Below are positions 4,882-14,713 of a stretch of 64,000 bases of DNA, in pieces. This DNA is from Streptomyces sp. WM6378 (GTDB lineage: Bacteria > Actinomycetota > Actinomycetes > Streptomycetales > Streptomycetaceae), in assembly GCF_001279695.1 (NCBI RefSeq), contig NZ_LGDD01000001.1, forward strand, positions 162,602 to 226,601. The letters are read 5' to 3'. Numbering within the stretch: position 1 is the first letter of the stretch; each line of letters begins with the position of its first letter. The position numbers and the translations under genes are program-made. Under the pieces are notes generated by a model. It did not search any database, was not told where the DNA came from, and saw nothing but the letters and a program-made list of their open reading frames with translations.

Positions 4882-4912
4882 CCGGAGGGTTTCGGGAAGG
4901 GGTGGGGTGGGG
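4882..4912. repeat. Right arm of 31-bp inverted repeat
   Basis: Partner of 4568-4598. It reads CCGGAGGGTTTCGGGAAG and continues into runs of GGGG separated by T. Confidence 0.8.
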
Positions 4913-4917
4913 TGGGG
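4899..4917 (+). other. G-quadruplex-forming motif
   Basis: Four runs of GGGG are separated by single T bases, the tightest class of intramolecular G-quadruplex. It lies about 140 bases upstream of mshC on the coding strand. Confidence 0.65.
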
Positions 4918-5042
4918 CTTCCCGGGGTCTGGGGCGGAGCCCCAGCAGGGGGAGGCTGGTTAGCACCTCCCGGCGCTGGGGCGCAAGAGGGTCGATTCGG
5001 CCAAGCGCGGGATCCGGTTCGTATCCGGAAGCCGCGTCCGGT

Positions 5043-5048
5043 TACGCT
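5043..5048 (+). promoter_or_regulatory. -10 box TACGCT for leaderless mshC
   Basis: TACGCT ends six bases before the mshC ATG at 5055. No ribosome binding site precedes the ATG, which fits a leaderless transcript. Confidence 0.5.
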
Positions 5049-5054
5049 CAAGAC

Positions 5055-6284
5055 ATGCATGCCTGGCCCGCTTCTGAGGTCCCCGCCCTGCCCGGCAAGG
5101 GCCGCGACCTCCGGATCCACGACACCGCGACCGGCGGTCGAGTCACCCTCGACCCCGGTCCCGTCGCCCGTATCTACGTCTGCGGGATCACCCCGTACGA
5201 CGCGACCCACATGGGTCACGCGGCGACCTACAACGCGTTCGACCTCGTTCAGCGCGTGTGGCTCGACACCAAGCGGCAGGTTCACTACGTCCAGAACGTG
5301 ACGGACGTGGACGACCCCTTGCTGGAGCGAGCCATCCGCGACGGCAAGGACTGGGTGGAACTCGCCGAGGGCGAGACCGCGCTGTTCCGCGAGGACATGA
5401 CCGCCCTGCGACTGCTCCCCCCGAAGCACTACATCGGCGCGGTCGAGGCGATACCGGGGATCGTCCCGCTCGTCGAACGGCTGCGGGACGCGGGAGCCGC
5501 GTACGAGCTCGAAGGGGACGTCTACTTCTCCGTCGAGAGCGACCCGCACTTCGGCGAGGTGTCGCACTACGACGCCGCCGCCATGAAGGCGCTGTCCGCC
5601 GAGCGCGGCGGCGACCCCGAGCGGCCCGGCAAGAAGAACCCGCTCGACCCGATGCTGTGGATGGCCGCCCGCGAGGGCGAGCCGAGCTGGGACGGCGCCT
5701 CGCTCGGGCGCGGCCGCCCCGGCTGGCACATCGAGTGCGTCGCCATCGCCCTCGACCACCTCGGCATGGGCTTCGACGTGCAGGGCGGCGGCTCCGACCT
5801 GATCTTCCCGCACCACGAGATGGGTGCTTCCCACGCCCAGGCGCTGACCGGCGAGTACCCCTTCGCCAAGGCGTACGTGCACGCCGGCATGGTCGCTCTG
5901 GGCGGCGAGAAGATGTCCAAGTCCAAGGGCAACCTGGTCTTCGTCTCGAAGCTGCGGCGCGACGGCGTCGACCCGGCCGCCATACGCCTCACCCTGCTCG
6001 CCCACCACTACCGGGCCGACTGGGAGTGGACCGACCAGGTGCTCCAGGACGCCGTCGAGCGTCTCGGGCGCTGGCGGGCCGCCGTGTCGCGGCCCGACGG
6101 GCCGTCCGCGGACGCGCTGGTCGAGGAGGTCCGCGAGGCCCTCGCCAACGACCTCGACGCGCCCGCCGCGCTCGCCGCGGTGGACCGCTGGGCCGAGCGC
6201 CAGGACGCCGACGGCGGCACGGACGAGGCCGCCCCCGGTCTCGTCTCCCGTACGGTCGACGCCCTCCTCGGTGTCGCCCTCTAG
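5055..6284 (+). CDS. mshC: Mycothiol ligase MshC (cysteine:GlcN-Ins ligase)
   Basis: A 409-residue enzyme of the cysteinyl-tRNA synthetase family that joins L-cysteine to GlcN-Ins using ATP, the penultimate step of mycothiol biosynthesis. The zinc site is visible as Cys43 ([10 protein letters not shown]), Cys228 ([14 protein letters not shown]) and the [10 protein letters not shown] histidines near 253. The HIGH-like motif is HMGH at 52-55 and the KMSKS loop is at 286-290. The length equals other MshC proteins and is shorter than CysS, and the C-terminal tRNA-binding domain is missing, which separates it from CysS. The ATG at 5055 sits at leaderless distance from TACGCT; a second ATG follows in another frame at 5059. 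Confidence 0.95.
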
Positions 6285-6409: not shown

Positions 6410-9400
6410 ATGCAATCACCAATATGCACGAGAGTGGCGCTCGCGGGAGCAGCCGTGCTCGGTCTGCTCGCGGTGTTCGCTGGGCCCGGCAGCGCGCAGG
6501 CCGCCGCGCCCGCCGACACCCCCGCCGATACCTCCGTAGGAAACGTGACCGGCTTCGAAGCCGCCGCGGGCTCCGTCTTCAAGCTGCACGCGGGCGCGGC
6601 CGAGGCCCGGGTCGGCTTCGTCACCGCGGACACCTTCCGCATCGAGCTCGCCCCGGACGGCGAGTTCACCGACCCGGCCGGCTCCGACATCGTCCTGCCG
6701 CAGGGCAAGCCGCCCGCCGCCCGCTGGAAGGACAAGGGCGACCGTTACGAGCTGAGCACCGACAAGGTCACCCTGCGCGCCTTCAAGTCCCCGCTCCGCT
6801 TCGCCCTCTACAAGGCGGACGGCACCCAGCTCTGGGCCGAGACCAAGCCGCTGAGCTGGACCAAGGACACCACCACCCAGACCCTGTCGCGCGGCGCCAC
6901 CGAGCAGTTCTACGGCGGCGGCATGCAGAACGGCCGGGGCAACACCTCGCACCGCGACCAGACGGTCCAGGTCGGCGTCGACGACAACTGGAACGACGGC
7001 GGTCACCCCAACTCCGTCCCGTTCTACCTCTCGACGGCCGGCTACGGCGTCTTCCGCAACACGTACGCCCCCAATACGTACGTGTTCGGGCAGCCCGTCA
7101 CCGCGAGCGCCAAGGAACAGCGCTTCGACGCCTACTACTTCGCGGGCGATGCGAAGCAAGTCATCGGCGACTACACCCAGTTGACCGGCAAGCCGTTCCT
7201 GCCGCCGGTCTACGGGCTCGAACCCGGCGACTCCGACTGCTATCTGCACAACGCCAACCGCGGCGAGCGCCACACCCTCGACGCCCTCAAGATCGCGGAC
7301 GCGTACAGGACCAACGACATGCCGAACGGCTGGATGCTGGTCAACGACGGCTACGGCTGCGGCTACGAGAACCTGCCCGAGACCGCCAAGGGCCTGCAGA
7401 ACGACTCCATGCAGATGGGCCTGTGGACCGAGGACGGCCTCGACAAGCTCGCCGACCAGGTCAAGGCGGGCCAGCGCGTCGCCAAGCTCGACGTCGCCTG
7501 GGTCGGCGACGGATACAAGCACGCGCTGGACGGCTGCAAGGCCGCCTATCAGGGCATCGAGGCCAACAGCGACGCGCGCGGCTTCACCTGGGCCCCGGAG
7601 AGCTGGTCCGGCGCGCAGCGCTGCGGCGTCCAGTGGTCCGGTGACCAGTCGGGCGGCTGGGAGAACATCCGCTGGCAGATCCCGACGTACGCGGGCGCGA
7701 CCCTCTCGGGCCTCGCCTACACCAGCGGCGACATCGACGGCATCTTCGGCGGCAGCCCCAAGACGTACACGCGCGACCTCCAGTGGAAGTCGTTCCTGCC
7801 CGCCGTGATGACCATGGACGGCTGGGCCGCGAGCGACAAGCAGCCCTACCAGTACGGCGAGCCCTACACCTCGATCAACCGCGGCTACCTCAAGCTCAAG
7901 GAGTCGCTGCTGCCCTACATGTACTCCTATGCCCACGAGGCGACCAAGACCGGCATCGGGCCCGTCCGGCCACTGGCTCTCGAATACCCGAACGATCCGA
8001 AGGCCGCCACCGACGCCGCCAAGTACGAGTTCCTGTCCGGCGAGGACTTCCTGGTCGCCCCGGTCTACCAGGACACGACCGTACGCAACGGGATCTACCT
8101 GCCCCAGGGCACCTGGATCGACTACTGGAGCGGGCGCACGTACCAGGGCCCGACCACCGTCGACAACTACAGCGCGCCGCTCGACACGCTGCCCCTGTTC
8201 GTGAAGGCGGGCGCCGCCGTCCCGATGTGGCCCGGCATCCGCTCCTACCAGGACCGCACCGCGAACTCGCCGCTCGCCTGGGACATCTACCCGCAGGGCC
8301 GCTCCTCCTTCCAGCTGTACGAGGACGACGGCGTGACCCGCGCCAACCGGACCGGCGCCTATGCGACCCAGCGCGCCGACGTCTCGGCCCCGCAGCGTGG
8401 CTCTGGCGACGTGACCGTCCAAGTGGGCGCCAGCAAGGGCGGGTTCAAGGGCAAGCAGACCGCCCGCCCCTACGAGCTGACGCTGCACACCGGCAGCGCG
8501 CCCGCCAAGGTCGAGGTCCAGGGGAGCCGGCTCGCGCGGCTCGGCTCGAAGGCCGCGTACGACAAGGCCGCCACCGGCTGGTTCTACGACCCGAGCGACC
8601 GGGGCGGCGTGGTTGTGGTGAAGACCGCGACCCTGCGCACGGACAAGGCCTTCGAGGTGAAGCTCAAGGACACCAGCGCCGTGGGCGGCCGCACCCCGGG
8701 CGACCGGGTCGCGCTGGCCGCGCCCGCCGGGCAGGAGCTCGGCGCGGGTGCGCCCGGCAAGGTGGCCGTGGACGTCACCGCCGGAGCCAAGGACGCGACC
8801 GGTGTCCGGGTGTCCGTCGCCGCACCGGCCGGGTGGGCCGTAACCCCGGCCGCCGCGCTCGAACGGATCCCGGCCGGCGCCACCCGGCGCGTCGAGGTGG
8901 GCGTCACTCCCGCCAAGGACGTCAGGCCCGGCGAGGTCACGCTGAACGTCAACTCTGCGTCGAATCGAGGGAGTTCACAGCAGCGGATCGCGGTCTCCGT
9001 GATGCCGGCGCCGCCCGCGGCCGACACCTGGGCCAGCGACATGGTCTGGCTGACGTCGGCCAACGGGTACGGGCCGCCCGAACGCGACCGCTCCAACGGC
9101 GAGTCGGGGGCGGCCGACGGCCACATCCTCACACTCGCCGGGAAGACGTACGCCAAGGGGATCGGCGCCCATGCCGACTCCGACATCGAGGTCTACACCG
9201 GCGGGCGGTGCACCGCCTTCACCGCCGACGTCGGCATCGACGACGAGATCAACGGCTACGGGGAGGTCGCCTTCTCCGTCGAGGCGGACGGCAAGGTCCT
9301 GTGGACCTCGCCGAAGGTGACCGGAGCCTCGGCGACCGTGCCGGTCGACGTGCCGCTCGGCGGCGCCCGGCACGTCCACCTGAAGATCACCGACACCAAC

Positions 9401-9457
9401 AACTCGAAGTCCGGTGACCACGGGGACTGGGCCGCCGCCAAGTTCACCTGCGCCTAG
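6410..9457 (+). CDS. Secreted GH31 glycosidase with NEW3 and NPCBM domains
   Basis: A 1,015-residue exported enzyme. Residues 1-32 form a signal peptide with a hydrophobic core and an SAQAA cleavage region. A galactose-mutarotase-like N-terminal region (about 40-260) precedes a GH31 TIM barrel. The likely nucleophile is Asp361 in AKLDVAWVGDGY and the likely acid/base is Asp412 in WSGDQSGGWEN. A GH31 beta-sandwich follows, then a NEW3 NPCBM-associated domain (about 770-865) and a C-terminal NPCBM/NEW2 carbohydrate-binding domain (about 870-1015). It should cleave alpha-linked sugars outside the cell; the exact specificity cannot be read. No clear ribosome binding site precedes the ATG, and a GTG 24 bases downstream is an alternative start. 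Confidence 0.88.
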   Translation: MQSPICTRVALAGAAVLGLLAVFAGPGSAQAAAPADTPADTSVGNVTGFEAAAGSVFKLHAGAAEARVGFVTADTFRIELAPDGEFTDPAGSDIVLPQGKPPAARWKDKGDRYELSTDKVTLRAFKSPLRFALYKADGTQLWAETKPLSWTKDTTTQTLSRGATEQFYGGGMQNGRGNTSHRDQTVQVGVDDNWNDGGHPNSVPFYLSTAGYGVFRNTYAPNTYVFGQPVTASAKEQRFDAYYFAGDAKQVIGDYTQLTGKPFLPPVYGLEPGDSDCYLHNANRGERHTLDALKIADAYRTNDMPNGWMLVNDGYGCGYENLPETAKGLQNDSMQMGLWTEDGLDKLADQVKAGQRVAKLDVAWVGDGYKHALDGCKAAYQGIEANSDARGFTWAPESWSGAQRCGVQWSGDQSGGWENIRWQIPTYAGATLSGLAYTSGDIDGIFGGSPKTYTRDLQWKSFLPAVMTMDGWAASDKQPYQYGEPYTSINRGYLKLKESLLPYMYSYAHEATKTGIGPVRPLALEYPNDPKAATDAAKYEFLSGEDFLVAPVYQDTTVRNGIYLPQGTWIDYWSGRTYQGPTTVDNYSAPLDTLPLFVKAGAAVPMWPGIRSYQDRTANSPLAWDIYPQGRSSFQLYEDDGVTRANRTGAYATQRADVSAPQRGSGDVTVQVGASKGGFKGKQTARPYELTLHTGSAPAKVEVQGSRLARLGSKAAYDKAATGWFYDPSDRGGVVVVKTATLRTDKAFEVKLKDTSAVGGRTPGDRVALAAPAGQELGAGAPGKVAVDVTAGAKDATGVRVSVAAPAGWAVTPAAALERIPAGATRRVEVGVTPAKDVRPGEVTLNVNSASNRGSSQQRIAVSVMPAPPAADTWASDMVWLTSANGYGPPERDRSNGESGAADGHILTLAGKTYAKGIGAHADSDIEVYTGGRCTAFTADVGIDDEINGYGEVAFSVEADGKVLWTSPKVTGASATVPVDVPLGGARHVHLKITDTNNSKSGDHGDWAAAKFTCA

Positions 9458-9518: not shown

Positions 9519-10067
9519 CTACTGCTTGTTCACCACGATCGCCTGGATGACGCTGTTGGTGGTGTCGTAGAACCCGATGACCTGCTGCCCGAACGCGAAG
9601 GCCTCCTGGACCTCGTCATGGGTGACGGGGTTGGGGTTCGCGAGCTGGCGCCAGTTGCCGTCGATGAACAAGTACAGGATCGACGGCTGGCCGGGCAGCG
9701 GGGTCACGACGTCCCAGAACTTCGTGGCGATGCCGCTGACCAGGGCGGCGCTGTTGACCGCGGCCGGCAGCACGAGCGGCTGGCCGATGCCCTGCTGCTG
9801 GCCCTGCTGGCCGCCCATCTGCTGGAGCAGCTGCTGGTAGGGCTGCTGCTGGCCGAGCTGCTGGAGCTGCTGCTGGATCTGCGGCGGCAGCTGCTGGCCG
9901 ATGCCCTGCTGGCTGTACTGCGGGGTGAAGCCCTGTTGGCCGAAGCCCTGCTGCTGGCCGAAGCCCTGCGGCGGGGACGTGCTGGGGCCCTGCTGGCCCA
10001 TCTGCTGGCCGTACTGCTGCTGTTGGTGCATCTGGTGCTGCTGGCTCATCTGCGGGGTGGTGCTCAT
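9519..10067 (-). CDS. Gln-rich low-complexity protein sharing a C-terminal module with the adjacent subtilase
   Basis: A 182-residue protein in two parts. Residues 1-96 are prion-like: about 42 are Gln, with Gly, Met, Pro, Tyr and Phe spaced between and almost no charge (for example QGFGQQQGFGQQGF). Residues 97-182 form a compact domain; its last 70 residues align with the C-terminus of the adjacent subtilase (TKFWDVVTPLPG...LYLFIDGNWRQLANPNP here against ERYWDELIPYPH...LRLFVAGAWRNLNDPAP there). There is no signal peptide or membrane helix. It lies 55 bases downstream of the subtilase gene on the same strand with its own GGAAGG site, so an operon is likely. I do not recognise a named family. 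It may be the protease's substrate, adaptor or regulator. Confidence 0.8.
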   Translation of the reverse strand: MSTTPQMSQQHQMHQQQQYGQQMGQQGPSTSPPQGFGQQQGFGQQGFTPQYSQQGIGQQLPPQIQQQLQQLGQQQPYQQLLQQMGGQQGQQQGIGQPLVLPAAVNSAALVSGIATKFWDVVTPLPGQPSILYLFIDGNWRQLANPNPVTHDEVQEAFAFGQQVIGFYDTTNSVIQAIVVNKQ

Positions 10068-10122
10068 GCGGGTGTCACCTTCCCTTTTGTGAGTTCCGCT
10101 AGCTGTCCGGTGTCCGTGACGC

Positions 10123-11859
10123 TCAGCCGGCGACCACCAGGCCGACGACCTCGTCGTCCGAGAACCAGACCCGTATGTCCGGCCGTCCGGCCGCGAAGGC
10201 GGAGTGCACCGCCTGGCGGAGTTCGGGCGCGGGGTCGTTCAGGTTGCGCCATGCGCCGGCCACGAACAGCCGGAGCCTCGGGGGCAGTTCATGGGGGTAC
10301 GGGATCAGTTCGTCCCAGTACCGTTCGGCCTGGCCGGTGCCGACCGTCGAGGGCATCAGACGGGTCACCGCGGCCTTGATGTCGGGCCGGTTGCCGATGC
10401 GCTGGGAGGCGGGCCGCTCCGGCGCGTCCTGCTGCGGGGAACCGGTCGACCGCAGGATCGTACGGGCCCGCTCCGGCGTCATCGGGTCCTGCCCGGTGGC
10501 CTTCAGCATGCCCTGGAGCGAGGCGAGGGCGCCGACCACGATGGGCGAGGCCGACGACGTACCGGAGAACGTGTCCGTGTACCAGGCGATCTCCTCGGCG
10601 CCGCCCTGGAGGTCGCCCGCCCGGTCCCAGAACCCGCCGGTCGTGGTGGTCTCGCGGCCCCAGCCCTGGGCGTCGATGCGGGCGCCGTAGTTGGAGAACG
10701 CGAGCCGCGAGCGGTCCGGGCCGTGGTCGCGGCCGTGCGTGCCGGGCGGCGGGGCGCCCGCGCCCACCAGGACCGCGCCCGAGGACTGGTTGGACGGGTT
10801 GAAGGGGTTGCGCCAGTCCTGAGGGAAGCCCTCGGGGCGCCGCTCGTACAGCGCGTCGTCCAGGCTCTCGCCGCCGTTGCCGCCGGCCGCCACCACCAGG
10901 ACGCCCTTCGCGGTCGCCCAGCGGATCGCCGCGAAGTCGTCCGGCCACCACTCGATCGGGACGTAGCCCTCCTGGTCGTCCCGGGCCTGGAAGTCGAACC
11001 TCGGCCCCGGGCGGTGCAGTTCGATCAGGACGATGTCACCGGGCGAGAGCCGCTCGGCCGCGGCATGGACCGCCGCCGCCGTGCCGATGCCCTGGAACGA
11101 GGCGGCCGCCGTGACCGCCTCCGGGGCGATCCCGGTGATGCCCTTCTCGTCCCGGTCGCCGCCGATGACCCCGAGCACGGCCGTGCCGTGGTTGCGCCAC
11201 GCCAGGTCCTGCACCGGGTTGCCGACCACGATCCCGGCGAGCTTGTCCACCAGGTCCTCGTGGCCCAGCTGCCAGGCGCCCTCGACGTCGATGACGGTGA
11301 CGCCCTCGCCGGAGCCGCCCGGACGCAGCCATGCCCAGTAGGCGTCGACGCCCGCGGGCGCGGGGTTCAAGTAGCCCTGCCGGCCGGTGTAGTCGGGCGT
11401 CGCCGGGGCGCCCTCCTTCAGCCGCTTGATGGTCTCCTCGTCGCGTCCCGTCATCGAGGCGGGCACGGCGCCCGGCTTCACGTAGGCGGTCTCGACCTCG
11501 GGCAGCGCGGCGAGCCGTGCGCTCAGCTCCGTCACCCGCTCGCCGCCACCGCGTACCCGGTAGTAGAGGGACAGGTCCGGGAGCGCCTCGCGGGAGGTGC
11601 CCTGCGGGACCTGGGCCAGCCGCTCCTCGCGGCCGAACAGCGGTTCCAGGGCGATCTGTTCGTCGGTGAGGAACATCGAGAGAGCCGAGGTGTCGGCTCC
11701 GGAAGCCGACCGGACGCCCTCAGCGCCGACACGCAGCCGGGCCTCGGCCCGTGCGACGACGATCAGTTCCGGCTCGGCTCCGTGATAGGTGAATCCAGCT
11801 CCATCGGGTCCTGGCCCCGCCGTTCCGGGGTCCTGACCCGGGTGAATCCGATCGGTCAT
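10123..11859 (-). CDS. Intracellular S8 subtilisin-like serine peptidase with C-terminal shared module
   Basis: A 578-residue subtilase. The catalytic triad is Asp191 (GVTVIDVEGAW), His224 (WRNHGTAVLGVIGG) and Ser435 (FSGTSSASPIVVG), with oxyanion Asn328 (VVAAGGNGG). Residues about 30-150 form an N-terminal region (LTDEQIALEPLFG, LSLYYRV, LPEVETAYV) that resembles an inhibitory prodomain. Residues 508-578 are the module also found at the end of the neighbouring Gln-rich protein. No signal peptide or membrane helix is seen, so it should act in the cytoplasm unless exported by another route, which is unusual for Streptomyces S8 enzymes. It is the first gene of a probable two-gene operon. Confidence 0.88.
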   Translation of the reverse strand: MTDRIHPGQDPGTAGPGPDGAGFTYHGAEPELIVVARAEARLRVGAEGVRSASGADTSALSMFLTDEQIALEPLFGREERLAQVPQGTSREALPDLSLYYRVRGGGERVTELSARLAALPEVETAYVKPGAVPASMTGRDEETIKRLKEGAPATPDYTGRQGYLNPAPAGVDAYWAWLRPGGSGEGVTVIDVEGAWQLGHEDLVDKLAGIVVGNPVQDLAWRNHGTAVLGVIGGDRDEKGITGIAPEAVTAAASFQGIGTAAAVHAAAERLSPGDIVLIELHRPGPRFDFQARDDQEGYVPIEWWPDDFAAIRWATAKGVLVVAAGGNGGESLDDALYERRPEGFPQDWRNPFNPSNQSSGAVLVGAGAPPPGTHGRDHGPDRSRLAFSNYGARIDAQGWGRETTTTGGFWDRAGDLQGGAEEIAWYTDTFSGTSSASPIVVGALASLQGMLKATGQDPMTPERARTILRSTGSPQQDAPERPASQRIGNRPDIKAAVTRLMPSTVGTGQAERYWDELIPYPHELPPRLRLFVAGAWRNLNDPAPELRQAVHSAFAAGRPDIRVWFSDDEVVGLVVAG

Positions 11860-12233
11860 CGCTTCCGCCGCTCCCCTCGGGTGCTGTGCTTGGCGTGCCT
11901 ACGGGGACACACCCTGCTACCTCAGCGCCGGAACGTAAACCCCGCTCGCGCGAGCAAAGTTTGAAATCAAGCTGAATGGGCAACCCGTGCATTTGGACCG
12001 GAAACCGATGTCACGCCGCAATTAGGCCAAACACGGCGGGGGTTGGGGGCGCCCGGTGGGGTGCGAGCGGTCCCTGTGACAGGGAAGTTGACGTGTCTGT
12101 GCGGGGTGGCCGGATACGCATCCGGGCCACCGGCGCGACCGCTCCGGCCCGCTTTCCGGTTTACGACGACGGCGGGACCGGGGCGCGACCCGTTCCAACT
12201 GCCAGCGGGGCGCGGTCTGTTGTGGGGGAGGGG
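11860..12233. other. Intergenic region between the subtilase and aldehyde dehydrogenase genes
   Basis: The left part is the upstream region of the subtilase gene and holds a 12-base palindrome GCTCGCGCGAGC at 11944-11955. The right part holds two hairpins, TCCCTG/CAGGGA at 12071-12085 and a longer one at 12106-12130. No gene is supported. Confidence 0.5.
12106..12130 (-). terminator. Hairpin downstream of the aldehyde dehydrogenase gene
   Basis: GTGGCCGGAT (12106-12115) pairs with 12120-12130 around ACGC with one bulged base, about 100 bases beyond the dehydrogenase stop. Confidence 0.45.
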
Positions 12234-13640
12234 TCAAGAACCCGAAGGCTCTGCCCCGTGCCACACCGTGGTCACGTTGCAGAACTCCCGAATGCCGTGC
12301 CCGGACAACTCGCGCCCATACCCGGACCGCTTGATCCCCCCGAAGGGGAAAGCAGGATGAGACGCGGTCATCCCGTTGAAGAACACCCCGCCCGCCTGGA
12401 GGTCCCGTACGCAGCGCTCGACCTCGGCGCTTTCGCGGGTCCAGACGTTCGAACTGAGCCCGAACGGCGAGTCGTTGGCGACCGACACCGCCTCGTCGAG
12501 GTCCCGCACCCGGTACAGCGTGGCGACCGGACCGAACGTCTCCTCCTGGTGGATCCGCATGTCCGCGGTGATGCCGGCGAGGACCGTGGGCAGGTAGAAC
12601 CAGCCCCGGTCGCTCCCCTCGGGGCGGCTTCCGCCGCACAGGGCCCTCGCTCCCTTGCGTACGGCGTCGTCGACGAGCTCCTCCAGGTCGGTCCGGCCCT
12701 GCTCGCTCGCCAGCGGGCCGACGTCAGTGTCCTCCAGGAGCGGGTCGCCGATCTTCAACTCCCGCATTCCGGCGGCGAATTGCTCGGCGAACGCGTCGTA
12801 GACGTCCGTGTGGACGATGAAGCGCTTCGCGGCGATGCAGGACTGCCCGTTGTTCTGCACCCGGGCGGTCACCGCGGTCCGCGCGGCCCGCTCCACATCG
12901 GCGGAGGGGAGCACGAGATAGGGGTCGCTGCCGCCGAGTTCGAGCACCGTCTTCTTGATCTCGTCGCCGCAGATCGCCGCGACGGAGCGGCCCGCCGGCT
13001 CGCTGCCGGTCAGCGTCGCGGCCGCCACCCGACGGTCCCGCAGCACCTTCTCGACGCCGTCGGAGCCGATGAGCAGGGTCTGGAAGCAGCCGTCGGGGAA
13101 GCCCGCCCGGCGGAACAGGTCCTCCAGGTACAGCGCGGTCTGTGGCACGTTCGACGCGTGCTTGAGCAGGCCGACGTTGCCCGCCATCAGCGCGGGCGCG
13201 GCGAACCGTACGACCTGCCAGAGCGGGAAGTTCCACGGCATCACCGCGAGGACCACGCCGAGCGGCCGGTAGTGGACCCGGGCCCGCTCGGCGCCGGAGT
13301 CGTGGACGTCGTCCTGGGCGGGCTCCTCGTCGGCGAGCAGCGCCGCCGCGTGCTCGGCGTACCAGCGCATCGCCTTCGCGCACTTCGCCGCCTCGGCCCG
13401 CGCCGCCGCGATGGGCTTGCCCATCTCCAGGGTCATGGTGCGGGCGATGTCGTCCCGGTCGCCGTCGAGCAGGTCGGCGGCCCGCAGCACCAGCCGCGTC
13501 CGCTCGTCGAAGCGGGTCGTGCGGTAGCCGGCGAAGGCGGTCTCGGCCGTGGCGAGGCGGCGCTCCACCTCCTCGGGCCCCATGGCGCCGAAGCTCTTGA
13601 GCGTCTCACCGGTAGCCGGATTCACCGTGGCGATGGCCAT
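12234..13640 (-). CDS. NAD(P)-dependent aldehyde dehydrogenase (succinic semialdehyde type)
   Basis: A 468-residue aldehyde dehydrogenase. The cofactor-binding MPWNFPLWQ and GNVGLLKHASNVPQ, the general base Glu in KKTVLELGGSDPYLV, and the catalytic Cys in QNNGQSCIAAKRF are all present, and the C-terminal PFGGIKRSGYGREL closes the fold. Length and motifs fit the NADP-dependent succinate-semialdehyde dehydrogenase group, but substrate assignment within this superfamily is uncertain. The start at MAIATVNP is supported by GGAGGTG eight bases upstream; the GTG four codons earlier overlaps that site. It is transcribed alone, between the subtilase pair and parJ. Confidence 0.85.
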   Translation of the reverse strand: MAIATVNPATGETLKSFGAMGPEEVERRLATAETAFAGYRTTRFDERTRLVLRAADLLDGDRDDIARTMTLEMGKPIAAARAEAAKCAKAMRWYAEHAAALLADEEPAQDDVHDSGAERARVHYRPLGVVLAVMPWNFPLWQVVRFAAPALMAGNVGLLKHASNVPQTALYLEDLFRRAGFPDGCFQTLLIGSDGVEKVLRDRRVAAATLTGSEPAGRSVAAICGDEIKKTVLELGGSDPYLVLPSADVERAARTAVTARVQNNGQSCIAAKRFIVHTDVYDAFAEQFAAGMRELKIGDPLLEDTDVGPLASEQGRTDLEELVDDAVRKGARALCGGSRPEGSDRGWFYLPTVLAGITADMRIHQEETFGPVATLYRVRDLDEAVSVANDSPFGLSSNVWTRESAEVERCVRDLQAGGVFFNGMTASHPAFPFGGIKRSGYGRELSGHGIREFCNVTTVWHGAEPSGS

Positions 13641-13729
13641 GACGTACGACACCTCCCGAAGGCACTGGTCCTTCGACCTTCCCGCGCGAGGGGAGGCGCC
13701 GCAACGCGAACCGGGGCCGGGCCCGGGGG

Positions 13730-14713
13730 CTACTCCTCGGAGGTGTCCTCGCCCGGGTCGTCCGTCTTCGGGGGCTTCGGCGGCCGGGTGCGCCCGCTGG
13801 AGGTGTCCCGCAGGTACGAGCCGTCGCCCTCGGTCGCGTGGCCGCCCGCCGTGGCCTGGCCGGGGCCGGGACCGCCGTCCCGGCGGCGCAGGTACCGCTC
13901 GAATTCGCGGGCGATGGCCTCGCCGGACGCCTCGGGCAGATCCGCGGTGTCCCGCGCCTCCTCAAGGGTCTGGACGTACTCGGCCACCTCGCTGTCCTCG
14001 GCGGCCAGTTGGTCGACGCCGAGCTGCCAGGCCCGGGCGTCCTCCGCGAGCTCGCCGAGCGGAATCCTGAGGTCGATCAGGTCTTCCAGGCGGTTGAGCA
14101 GGGCGAGCGTGGCCTTGGGGTTCGGCGGCTGGGACACGTAGTGCGGCACCGCGGCCCAGAGGCTGACCGCGGGAACTCCCGCGTGGGTACAGGCCTCCTG
14201 GAGGATGCCGACGATGCCCGTGGGGCCCTCGTACCGGGTCTCCTCCAGATCCATGGTCCGCGCCAGGTCCGGGTCGGAGGTCACGCCGCTGACCGGCACC
14301 GGCCGGGTGTGCGGGGTGTCGCCGAGCAGCGCGCCCAGGATCACCACCATCTCGACGCCCAGCTCGTGCGCGAAGCCCAGGATCTCGTTGCAGAACGAGC
14401 GCCAGCGCATCGACGGCTCGATGCCGCGCACGAGCACCAGGTCGCGCGGCTTGTCGCCGCCGACCCGCACCACGGAGAGCCGGGTCGTCGGCCATGTGAT
14501 CTTGCGGACTCCGCCGTCCAGCCACACGGTGGGCCGGTTGACCTGGAAGTCGTAGTAGTCCTCCGCGTCCAGCGCCGCGAAGACCTCGCCCTTCCATGCC
14601 CCGTCCAGGTGCGCGACAGCGGAGGAGGCGGCGTCGCCCGCGTCGTTCCAGCCCTCGAACGCGGCGATCATGACCGGGTCGACCAGCTCGGGAACGCCCT
14701 CCAGCTCGATCAC
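13730..14713 (-). CDS. parJ: PAC2-family protein, ParJ ortholog
   Basis: A 327-residue protein of the PAC2 (proteasome assembly chaperone 2-like) family. It begins MIELEGVPELVDPVMIAAFE from GTG after GGGAGG; GWNDAGDAASSAV, VILGALLGDTPHTRPVPVSG and GVPAVSLWAAVPHYV are family landmarks. The last 70 residues are polar, low-complexity and probably disordered. Its position by mshC and the glycerol genes matches SCO1662 of S. coelicolor, described as ParJ, an actinobacterial signature protein that interacts with ParA and affects chromosome segregation during sporulation. Orthology is inferred from position and family. The chromosome here also carries a 20S proteasome locus, but no direct link to it is shown. 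Confidence 0.82.
   Translation of the reverse strand: MIELEGVPELVDPVMIAAFEGWNDAGDAASSAVAHLDGAWKGEVFAALDAEDYYDFQVNRPTVWLDGGVRKITWPTTRLSVVRVGGDKPRDLVLVRGIEPSMRWRSFCNEILGFAHELGVEMVVILGALLGDTPHTRPVPVSGVTSDPDLARTMDLEETRYEGPTGIVGILQEACTHAGVPAVSLWAAVPHYVSQPPNPKATLALLNRLEDLIDLRIPLGELAEDARAWQLGVDQLAAEDSEVAEYVQTLEEARDTADLPEASGEAIAREFERYLRRRDGGPGPGQATAGGHATEGDGSYLRDTSSGRTRPPKPPKTDDPGEDTSEE

Follow-up and report, generated by a model that had tools for sequence, protein, structure and literature searches.

A subtilase and a glutamine-rich protein encoded side by side in Streptomyces end in a common module, a candidate coupling adaptor

Why should a protease that seems to remain inside the cell and a small glutamine-rich (Gln-rich) protein, encoded next to each other, end in the same domain? 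The question is raised by two genes within a 64,000-nt stretch of the genome of Streptomyces sp. WM6378 (contig NZ_LGDD01000001.1, positions 162,602 to 226,601), called the window in the following. A first-pass annotation of this DNA had proposed that the domain recruits a substrate or effector by homotypic contact. Several parts of that interpretation stood up to comparison with other genomes: the two-gene unit, the protease without an export signal, the common module and the co-occurrence of the genes. The Gln-rich gene was moreover never found alone. The reading that we favour, with about an even chance of being correct on the comparative sequence evidence, is that the two genes form an intracellular protease unit, the C-terminal module acting as a coupling adaptor.

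The pair and its common C-terminal module

Both open reading frames (ORFs) lie exactly where they had first been placed. They are read from the minus strand, the subtilase (11859 to 10123) preceding the Gln-rich gene (10067 to 9519) by 55 nt, and are organized as follows:

10123..11859, minus strand: S8 subtilase with C-terminal module, 578 aa (P0001; ORF)
11410..11769, minus strand: propeptide region, residues 31-150 (approximate, predicted)
10351..11400, minus strand: catalytic domain, residues 154-503
11287-11289, 11188-11190, 10876-10878 and 10555-10557, minus strand: catalytic residues Asp191, His224, Asn328 and Ser435, respectively
10126..10338, minus strand: C-terminal module, subtilase residues 508-578 (E 7e-11 to the Gln-rich C-terminus; module alignment)
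10068..10122, minus strand: 55-nt spacer with a ribosome-binding-like site ahead of the Gln-rich gene (sequence)
9519..10067, minus strand: Gln-rich protein with C-terminal module, 182 aa (P0002; ORF and homologues)
9756..10067, minus strand: Gln-rich, charge-free N-terminal part, residues 1-104; 40% Gln, no D, E, K or R (composition)
9810..9872, minus strand: conserved motif QQLQQLGQQQPYQQLLQQMGG, residues 66-86 (motif pattern)
9522..9737, minus strand: C-terminal module, Gln-rich protein residues 111-182 (BLASTP, module alignment, AlphaFold2)

The C-termini of the two proteins are homologous, as had been claimed from the sequence alone. Residues 508-578 of the subtilase align with residues 111-180 of the Gln-rich protein with 24 identities over 71 positions (34%; E 7e-11 in a two-sequence BLASTP), and the BLOSUM62 local score of 107 lies far above that of 2000 shuffles (mean 24.3, maximum 53; z 18). 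Searched against its own 9.5 Mb genome, the Gln-rich protein gave a single other match, the C-terminus of the subtilase (E 2.8e-7), and a profile of 95 members detected no convincing third copy of the module there, the next match having an E value of 0.89. The columns originally described as common to both (W-D, P-x-P, L, W-R, P, V, A-F and G) are seen in a 12-row module alignment; over 77 loci they are kept in the subtilase consensus, but W-D and W-R are changed in the consensus of 36 of the 77 Gln-rich proteins.

No Pfam name could be given to the module. The only Pfam line for the window protein is DUF3201, at 14.2 bits against a cut-off of 25, and the 95 members together collected 76 scattered weak names, the best E value among the 25 shown being 0.0026; assignment to a known family was rejected on these grounds. 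The Gln-rich protein has no NCBIfam or PHROG match, and the best PDB sequence match has an E value of 0.32. All structure predictions were made on single chains. AlphaFold2 gives the module of the Gln-rich protein the order strand-strand-strand-helix-strand-strand with pLDDT block means of 87-97, a predicted small OB-like barrel, for which OB-fold proteins (toxin B subunits, SilF, SSB, eIF5A) are the nearest known comparison. The subtilase module keeps an E-L-x-P-Y-P stretch, which in the window reads LIPY at 10297-10308 (residues 518-521). A LIPY/F motif in the N-terminal propeptide inhibits the intracellular subtilisins (ISPs) of the Bacillus type (PMC6220982); the likeness is possibly a coincidence.

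The protease itself matches the Peptidase_S8 profile PF00082 (46.9 bits, cut-off 21.8) and qualifies as a subtilisin fold. The full catalytic triad that had been recognized in the window, together with the oxyanion Asn, is nearly invariant among 201 aligned subtilases (D191 in 198, H224 in 200, N328 and S435 in all 201), the departures being gaps in two fragments and one D191V. Two subtilases have lost the catalytic Asp and kept His and Ser, one in G166 (L127:5743-7632, D191A) and one at L114 (D191V), and these are possible inactive forms. The model of the window subtilase aligns to pro-Tk-subtilisin from residue 30 on, and we predict a zymogen-type S8 protease with a propeptide. The earlier statement that it carries no export signal was borne out by hydropathy: among the 119 subtilases that start with Met and have at least 500 residues, none has a signal-peptide-like stretch in the first 28 residues. 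An exported protease was discarded as a candidate on the hydropathy of these N-termini, and the enzyme seems, from sequence, to remain inside the cell.

The Gln-rich protein has 137 homologues at E <= 0.01, and among the 120 matches listed every named organism is a Streptomyces. The part before the module, which is probably disordered, has a median of 43% Gln and 1.9% charged residues across 81 such proteins. It is variable apart from a single conserved hydrophobic (L/F) motif, whose pattern was found in 80 of the 81. Gln-rich prion-like proteins are a known class, Gln-rich and nearly uncharged with scattered aromatic residues. In composition the window protein resembles them; it differs in being coupled, as its sequence suggests, to a protease by a common module.

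The adjacency of the two genes extends well beyond the window. In all of 80 loci, each titled Streptomyces, the Gln-rich gene comes next after the subtilase, on the same strand and at a distance of 29-161 nt (median 55), and a Shine–Dalgarno-like pentamer (permissive pattern) precedes the Gln-rich gene every time. These are 80 of 111 confirmed loci from a species-representative collection and they were picked by a match to the module pattern, so that a count of 80/80 presupposes at least one module. The first-pass annotation had named three outcomes that would speak against its proposal, namely no profile similarity between the two C-termini, no co-occurrence of the genes, and an export signal on the subtilase; none of them was observed.

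Recurrence of the layout and relation to known systems

The S8 subfamily to which the window protease belongs has scattered members in archaea, cyanobacteria, Bacillota and Pseudomonadota. One of these, encoded on plasmid pHME505 of Haloferax mediterranei (L177:4956-7003), is 55% identical to the window protein over residues 31-509 and ends in a module of about 80 residues that is unrelated to the OB-like one. The gene 62 nt downstream encodes a protein of 84 aa that is 79% identical to this C-terminal module. When 80 genomes of the window's order were searched for the Haloferax-type module, two gave matches, each with two neighbouring copies. G142 (L200:4722-6887) has the module on an S8 relative, the start of which is not fixed, and a stand-alone copy 84 nt further on, the two being 59% identical; this S8 protein is 52% identical to the catalytic part of the window protease and 59% to the Haloferax enzyme. 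In G1291 (L201:5410-7083) the module is borne by an astacin (Pfam E 4e-49), and the stand-alone copy, 67% identical, lies 321 nt on. The N-terminal hydropathy of this astacin is 1.37, below the exported yardsticks but not far from them, which makes its location less clear. An NCBIfam model that takes its name from a Legionella protein (a family name only) also matches this astacin above its cut-off.

The stand-alone partner in this second module type is a bare module of 84-86 aa, with the signature GVQF...RWFT.WP.... Neither a Pfam nor a significant PDB match was found for it, no similarity to the OB-like module could be detected by sequence, and viral contigs contained no copy. In two of the three loci the copies within a locus are each other's closest. 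The layout, as read from sequence, is found with either of two unrelated modules and on either of two protease folds, S8 and astacin. Since it is found with other modules, a coupling role is likelier than the window alone could show, and its presence in Haloferax and in two genomes of the genus, on S8 and astacin enzymes, speaks for a general control arrangement rather than an accident at one locus. We regard this recurrence on two protease folds as the strongest argument for an adaptor role.

Other members of the S8 subfamily end differently: in DUF346 repeats (G420), in CBM5/12 (Serratia), in a sub-threshold FG-GAP match (Nostoc), or, in several, without any extension. The G420 relative (L122:5322-12000, with the DUF346 C-terminus) lies next to genes that, judged by eye, encode a TPR-like protein and another S8-like protein. 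Surveys around G420 and another relative, G607, matched 1/3 and 1/81 genomes, in both cases the centres themselves. Exported relatives of the same subfamily, from the family f91 and from G1023 and G593, are 37-41% identical over the propeptide and catalytic regions. They differ from the window protease in having signal-peptide-like N-termini (by eye; two of f91 tested by hydropathy) and no module; f91 and G1023 have a C-terminal extension that looks Ig-like by eye, and G593 has none. Mobile elements were considered as carriers. Scans of viral contigs with the protease found 2 and 4 distant loci. Phage cargo was rejected since no relative of the module turned up in the viral contigs and the only phage record that has a relative of the protease (35% identical) matched no further than residue 501. 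Plasmid cargo was rejected since the 8 matches listed, out of 9 plasmid records, all stop at or before residue 509. Plasmid astacins matched in 18 records; of three examined, one has a C-terminal extension, and no copy of that extension lies nearby.

The opinion in the first-pass annotation that no system with this layout had been described is too strong. Effector-associated domains (EADs) are small domains without enzymatic activity that a protease or another enzyme shares with the protein encoded by the adjacent gene, and they have been proposed to couple the two proteins by homotypic contact (PMC7159879, PMC8195603). They are of the same kind, with other domains and other enzymes: the OB-like module likewise occurs on the products of two adjacent genes. 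As portrayed in these papers, EADs are mostly helical, belong to multi-component NTPase conflict systems and occur in several copies per genome, whereas the Streptomyces pair has a predicted OB-like C-terminal module, a subtilase (or, with the other module, an astacin), a Gln-rich partner and a fixed chromosomal site. Two EAD features are absent here. Several copies per genome with varied partners are replaced by two copies in the source genome, both in the pair, and adjacent copies are not the most alike, the OB-like modules grouping by protein and not by locus (the reverse holds for two of the three loci with the second module). EADs are moreover tied to a conflict core (vWA-MoxR, VMAP, GAP1, STAND), and the conserved neighbours of the pair among the ORFs profiled are PAC2 and mshC. 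For want of those two features we do not file the pair as an EAD system, but it would work like one. The main text of PMC7159879 uses 'subtilisin' once and has neither 'OB fold' nor 'glutamine', 'subtilisin' is absent from that of PMC8195603, and no description of this layout was found in the open-licence PMC literature.

Bacillus-type ISPs offer the other comparison. They too are cytosolic S8 proteases in need of restraint, for which a separate regulator has been proposed (PMC6220982, PMC3901451), and the window subtilase shares with them the lack of a signal peptide (0/119, by hydropathy only). The ISP propeptide is typically 16-20 residues long (PMC6220982); the window enzyme has a predicted full propeptide domain in its place, and an ISP of this type was rejected for that reason. 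A further difference is its additional C-terminal module, common to the partner.

Occurrence at a fixed chromosomal site

Two genes outside the system mark its site in the chromosome, and the region upstream of the subtilase can be compared between loci:

11860..12060, minus strand: subtilase upstream region with a partly conserved block (GCGTGACATC...CAGCTTGATTTCAAAC; 74-region alignment including the window)
13730..14713, minus strand: PAC2-family gene (ParJ/SCO1662-like), site marker outside the system (PF09754, E 2.9e-64)
4902..6284, plus strand: mshC, the other site marker outside the system (TIGR03447, 679 bits, cut-off 485)

The corresponding S. coelicolor names are parJ for SCO1662 and mshC for SCO1663 (PMC4255298). 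A PAC2 gene lies beside the pair in 79/80 loci and mshC in 78/80, convergent with the pair in each of these 78; both are present in 77/80, with inserts in some. In six of eight pair-less genomes, the PAC2 and mshC genes point towards each other and their aligned ends are 0.05-0.73 kb apart; in the remaining two, no mshC was seen in the stretch compared. We infer that the pair is an insertion at a fixed site, inherited or lost vertically, and not a mobile island. In the window a GH31 glycosidase with an NPCBM domain (6410-9457, plus strand; also in 15/80 loci) stands between the pair and mshC, and an aldehyde dehydrogenase (12234-13652, minus strand; also in 3/80) near the subtilase; both are probably later insertions at the same site.

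In 79 loci PAC2 and the subtilase are separated by 218 nt or more, so that a promoter belonging to the pair itself is probable. The sequence GTGACATC occurs in 37 of 74 upstream regions against 0.4 in shuffles, and TGGCSNGWWY, which we take to be an AdpA-type pattern, in 38 of 74 against 2.3; the loci are related and the counts are not independent. The window itself lacks TGGCSNGWWY and has TTGANNTCAA instead, as found in 9/74 regions.

Among 392 genomes of the genus (those given G numbers here were assigned to Streptomyces from their named relatives), 64 bear the module: 58 with two matches, one with three (G1103) and five with one. The 36 positives of a survey of 246 genomes are all among these 64, and the counts rest on searches other than one made with the full, low-complexity Gln-rich protein as query. 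In such searches only a limited set of candidates is scored for each genome, and the number of match-less genomes may therefore be overestimated. The places listed for two-match genomes lie within about 1 kb of each other (by eye). The pair is present in 59 of the 64, and the Gln-rich gene alone in none; in the named loci co-occurrence is strict, in agreement with the original expectation. A sample of 396 genomes of the phylum gave four module matches, three of them in the genus and one weak and partial (G686, 34 positions, E 0.001); two weak matches, with the full Gln-rich protein as query, came from another genus (G045 and G049, E 7e-4). At the usual site G309, one of the five single-match genomes, retains a remnant (L128:7197-7598) in which the start of the subtilase is fused to the module, the protease domain and the Gln-rich gene being gone.

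G1103 has a second pair at another site. Its subtilase, at 4.57 Mb, is diverged, and 35 nt behind it comes the gene for a Gln-rich protein of 158 aa that contains a motif of the same sort (LQQLHQLGQQQPFQSLLQQFG); the module of this protein is strongly diverged and scores 16.1 bits against the module profile. This pair was found by profile, plain BLASTP having missed it, and three further Gln-rich proteins of this second type were identified. In a tree of 56 module rows, one branch, supported at 100/100, has all 24 subtilase modules of both types on the same side, which is consistent with both genes having diverged side by side and not having been re-made at each locus. The second-type Gln-rich modules form a very long branch with no resolved place in this tree, for which the program warned of long branches and few columns.

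The module as a proposed adaptor, and rival explanations

In the reading that we favour, the module would join the protease and the Gln-rich protein, either by module-module assembly or by binding of one target, and the Gln-rich protein would then scaffold and concentrate the protease, or restrain it. A number of observations weigh against this. The two modules evolve very differently: pooled Nei-Gojobori counts over 39 disjoint close pairs, which are not a codon-model test, put the dN/dS of the subtilase module at 0.16 (0.14-0.19), that of the catalytic domain at 0.19 (0.17-0.20) and that of the Gln-rich module at 0.58 (bootstrap 0.47-0.70), about 3.6 times the value of its counterpart. That both modules stay below 1 counts in favour of the unit. 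The all-pairs values of 0.86 (Gln-rich) and 0.17 (subtilase) were set aside as more saturated. The fast evolution of the Gln-rich module weakens a strict homotypic model, and so does the loss of aromatics that the subtilase module keeps: in the second branch of Gln-rich modules (36/77, split by pattern) the consensus W-D becomes I-D and W-R becomes F-R, which calls for caution about strict pairing of like with like. With the PAC2, mshC and catalytic background removed, the distances of the two modules correlate with a partial r of just 0.12-0.14 (77 loci). A value of 0.12 was reached in 2/500 permutations, and the Gln-rich module against the catalytic domain, given the subtilase module, yields r 0.005; this co-variation is weak evidence for coupling and would fit relaxed constraint on the partner too. 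In the full subtilase model the module is poorly predicted (pLDDT block means 30-46). Thirteen relatives outside the OB-module family have an extension of 30 residues or more, and a nearby copy of it was found in Haloferax alone; two of these loci extend no further than about 1.2 kb downstream. Simple duplications of the 3′ end could likewise have given rise to module and partner.

Subtilases found without a partner bear on the same question. They come from the other four single-match genomes: G160 and G250 have a subtilase and no Gln-rich gene, and G166 and G1062 have diverged second-type subtilases with no Gln-rich gene in filtered ORF lists. Counted over 262 columns that are near-invariant in paired loci, the 79 complete paired sequences (L043, ended by a contig end, being excluded) show at most 3 departures, compared with 5 in G160, 17 in G250, 37 in G166 (including D191A) and 47 in G1062. 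The second copy of G1103, which has a partner, shows 34, and 118 hold-out subtilases have a median of 0 and a maximum of 14, two of them standing at 12 and 14. The G250 subtilase fits decay after loss of its partner, in favour of the adaptor reading; G160 hardly does, and its near-normal enzyme without a partner counts against that reading, as do the partnerless G166 and G1062 and the two hold-out values of 12 and 14. Because G160 hardly fits, and because the second subtilases of G166, G1062 and G1103 are an older subfamily, the departure data are a hint only.

The best rival makes the partner a decoy or brake. The module would bind a target (a ligand, a surface or the protease itself), and the partner would keep cytosolic proteolysis low by competing for that target or by capping the protease. 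It ranks ahead of the others because in the second module type the partner, being a bare module of 84-86 aa, is what a competitor would need; a subtilase left unchecked in the cytosol would do harm, an inhibitor of the Bacillus intracellular subtilisin, IPI, has been reported (PMC3901451), and the C-termini of relatives include binding-type domains (DUF346, CBM5/12, the sub-threshold FG-GAP). We nevertheless consider it unlikely, given that subtilases persist without a partner in G160, G250, G166 and G1062, that the protease already has a predicted propeptide of the inhibitory type, and that the long Gln-rich extension would be left unexplained. In another rival the partner is a dedicated substrate, docked through the module and cut in its Gln-rich part, likeliest at the L/F motif, which would release or dissolve it. 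The single hydrophobic motif in 80/81 otherwise variable Gln-rich parts, kept at the second locus, the rapid evolution of the partner and the absence of a Gln-rich gene without subtilase all suit an enzyme and its substrate, and there is a precedent of a kind in a metallopeptidase gene beside that of a small, fast-diverging protein which is cleaved (PMC7159879). Next in rank, this explanation is slightly less probable again, as the partner in the second module type has no extension to cut.

A tandem duplication of the protease 3′ end whose downstream copy has no lasting role would explain why the copies lie directly downstream in each case, why those within a locus are closest to each other in two of the three second-module loci, and why the Gln-rich module has a raised dN/dS and the full pair is incomplete in 5/64 genomes. 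Yet the Gln-rich gene has an intact frame, a start motif and a ribosome-binding-like site in 80/80 loci, its module has a pooled dN/dS of 0.58 (bootstrap 0.47-0.70), both genes are retained at two loci and the layout occurs on two protease folds; we think such a leftover improbable. Least credible of all, and in our view very improbable, is a defence or programmed-death system of the EAD type with the protease as effector and the partner as sensor or antidote. The layout fits the published EAD principle (PMC7159879, PMC8195603), the partner evolves fast, and the G420 relative stands beside its TPR-like protein and another subtilase (by eye), but the pair occupies a fixed site in 77/80 loci, that site is empty in 6/8 pair-less genomes, the source genome has two module copies only, and PADLOC returned a weak generic 'subtilase' match (22 bits, E 2.3e-5) and none for the Gln-rich protein.

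A coupling adaptor, our preferred reading, can be extended into a bolder picture that we put forward tentatively and think rather doubtful as a whole: a widespread class of cytosolic proteases of bacteria and archaea in which a swappable C-terminal module would aim the protease and a free copy from the next gene would set the dose, the Gln-rich tail of the Streptomyces copy gathering protease and target into a condensate, that is, a membraneless proteolytic compartment.

How a broad subtilisin-like protease can be used safely and in an aimed manner in the cytosol is poorly understood outside Bacillus, and the pair provides a compact and genetically simple Streptomyces unit in which to study the control of such an enzyme. 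The Gln-rich protein is in addition a natural, charge-poor bacterial protein with a known genetic partner. That unrelated modules and proteases show the layout again, in Haloferax and in further genomes of the genus, suggests a general solution, one that can be searched for by layout alone.

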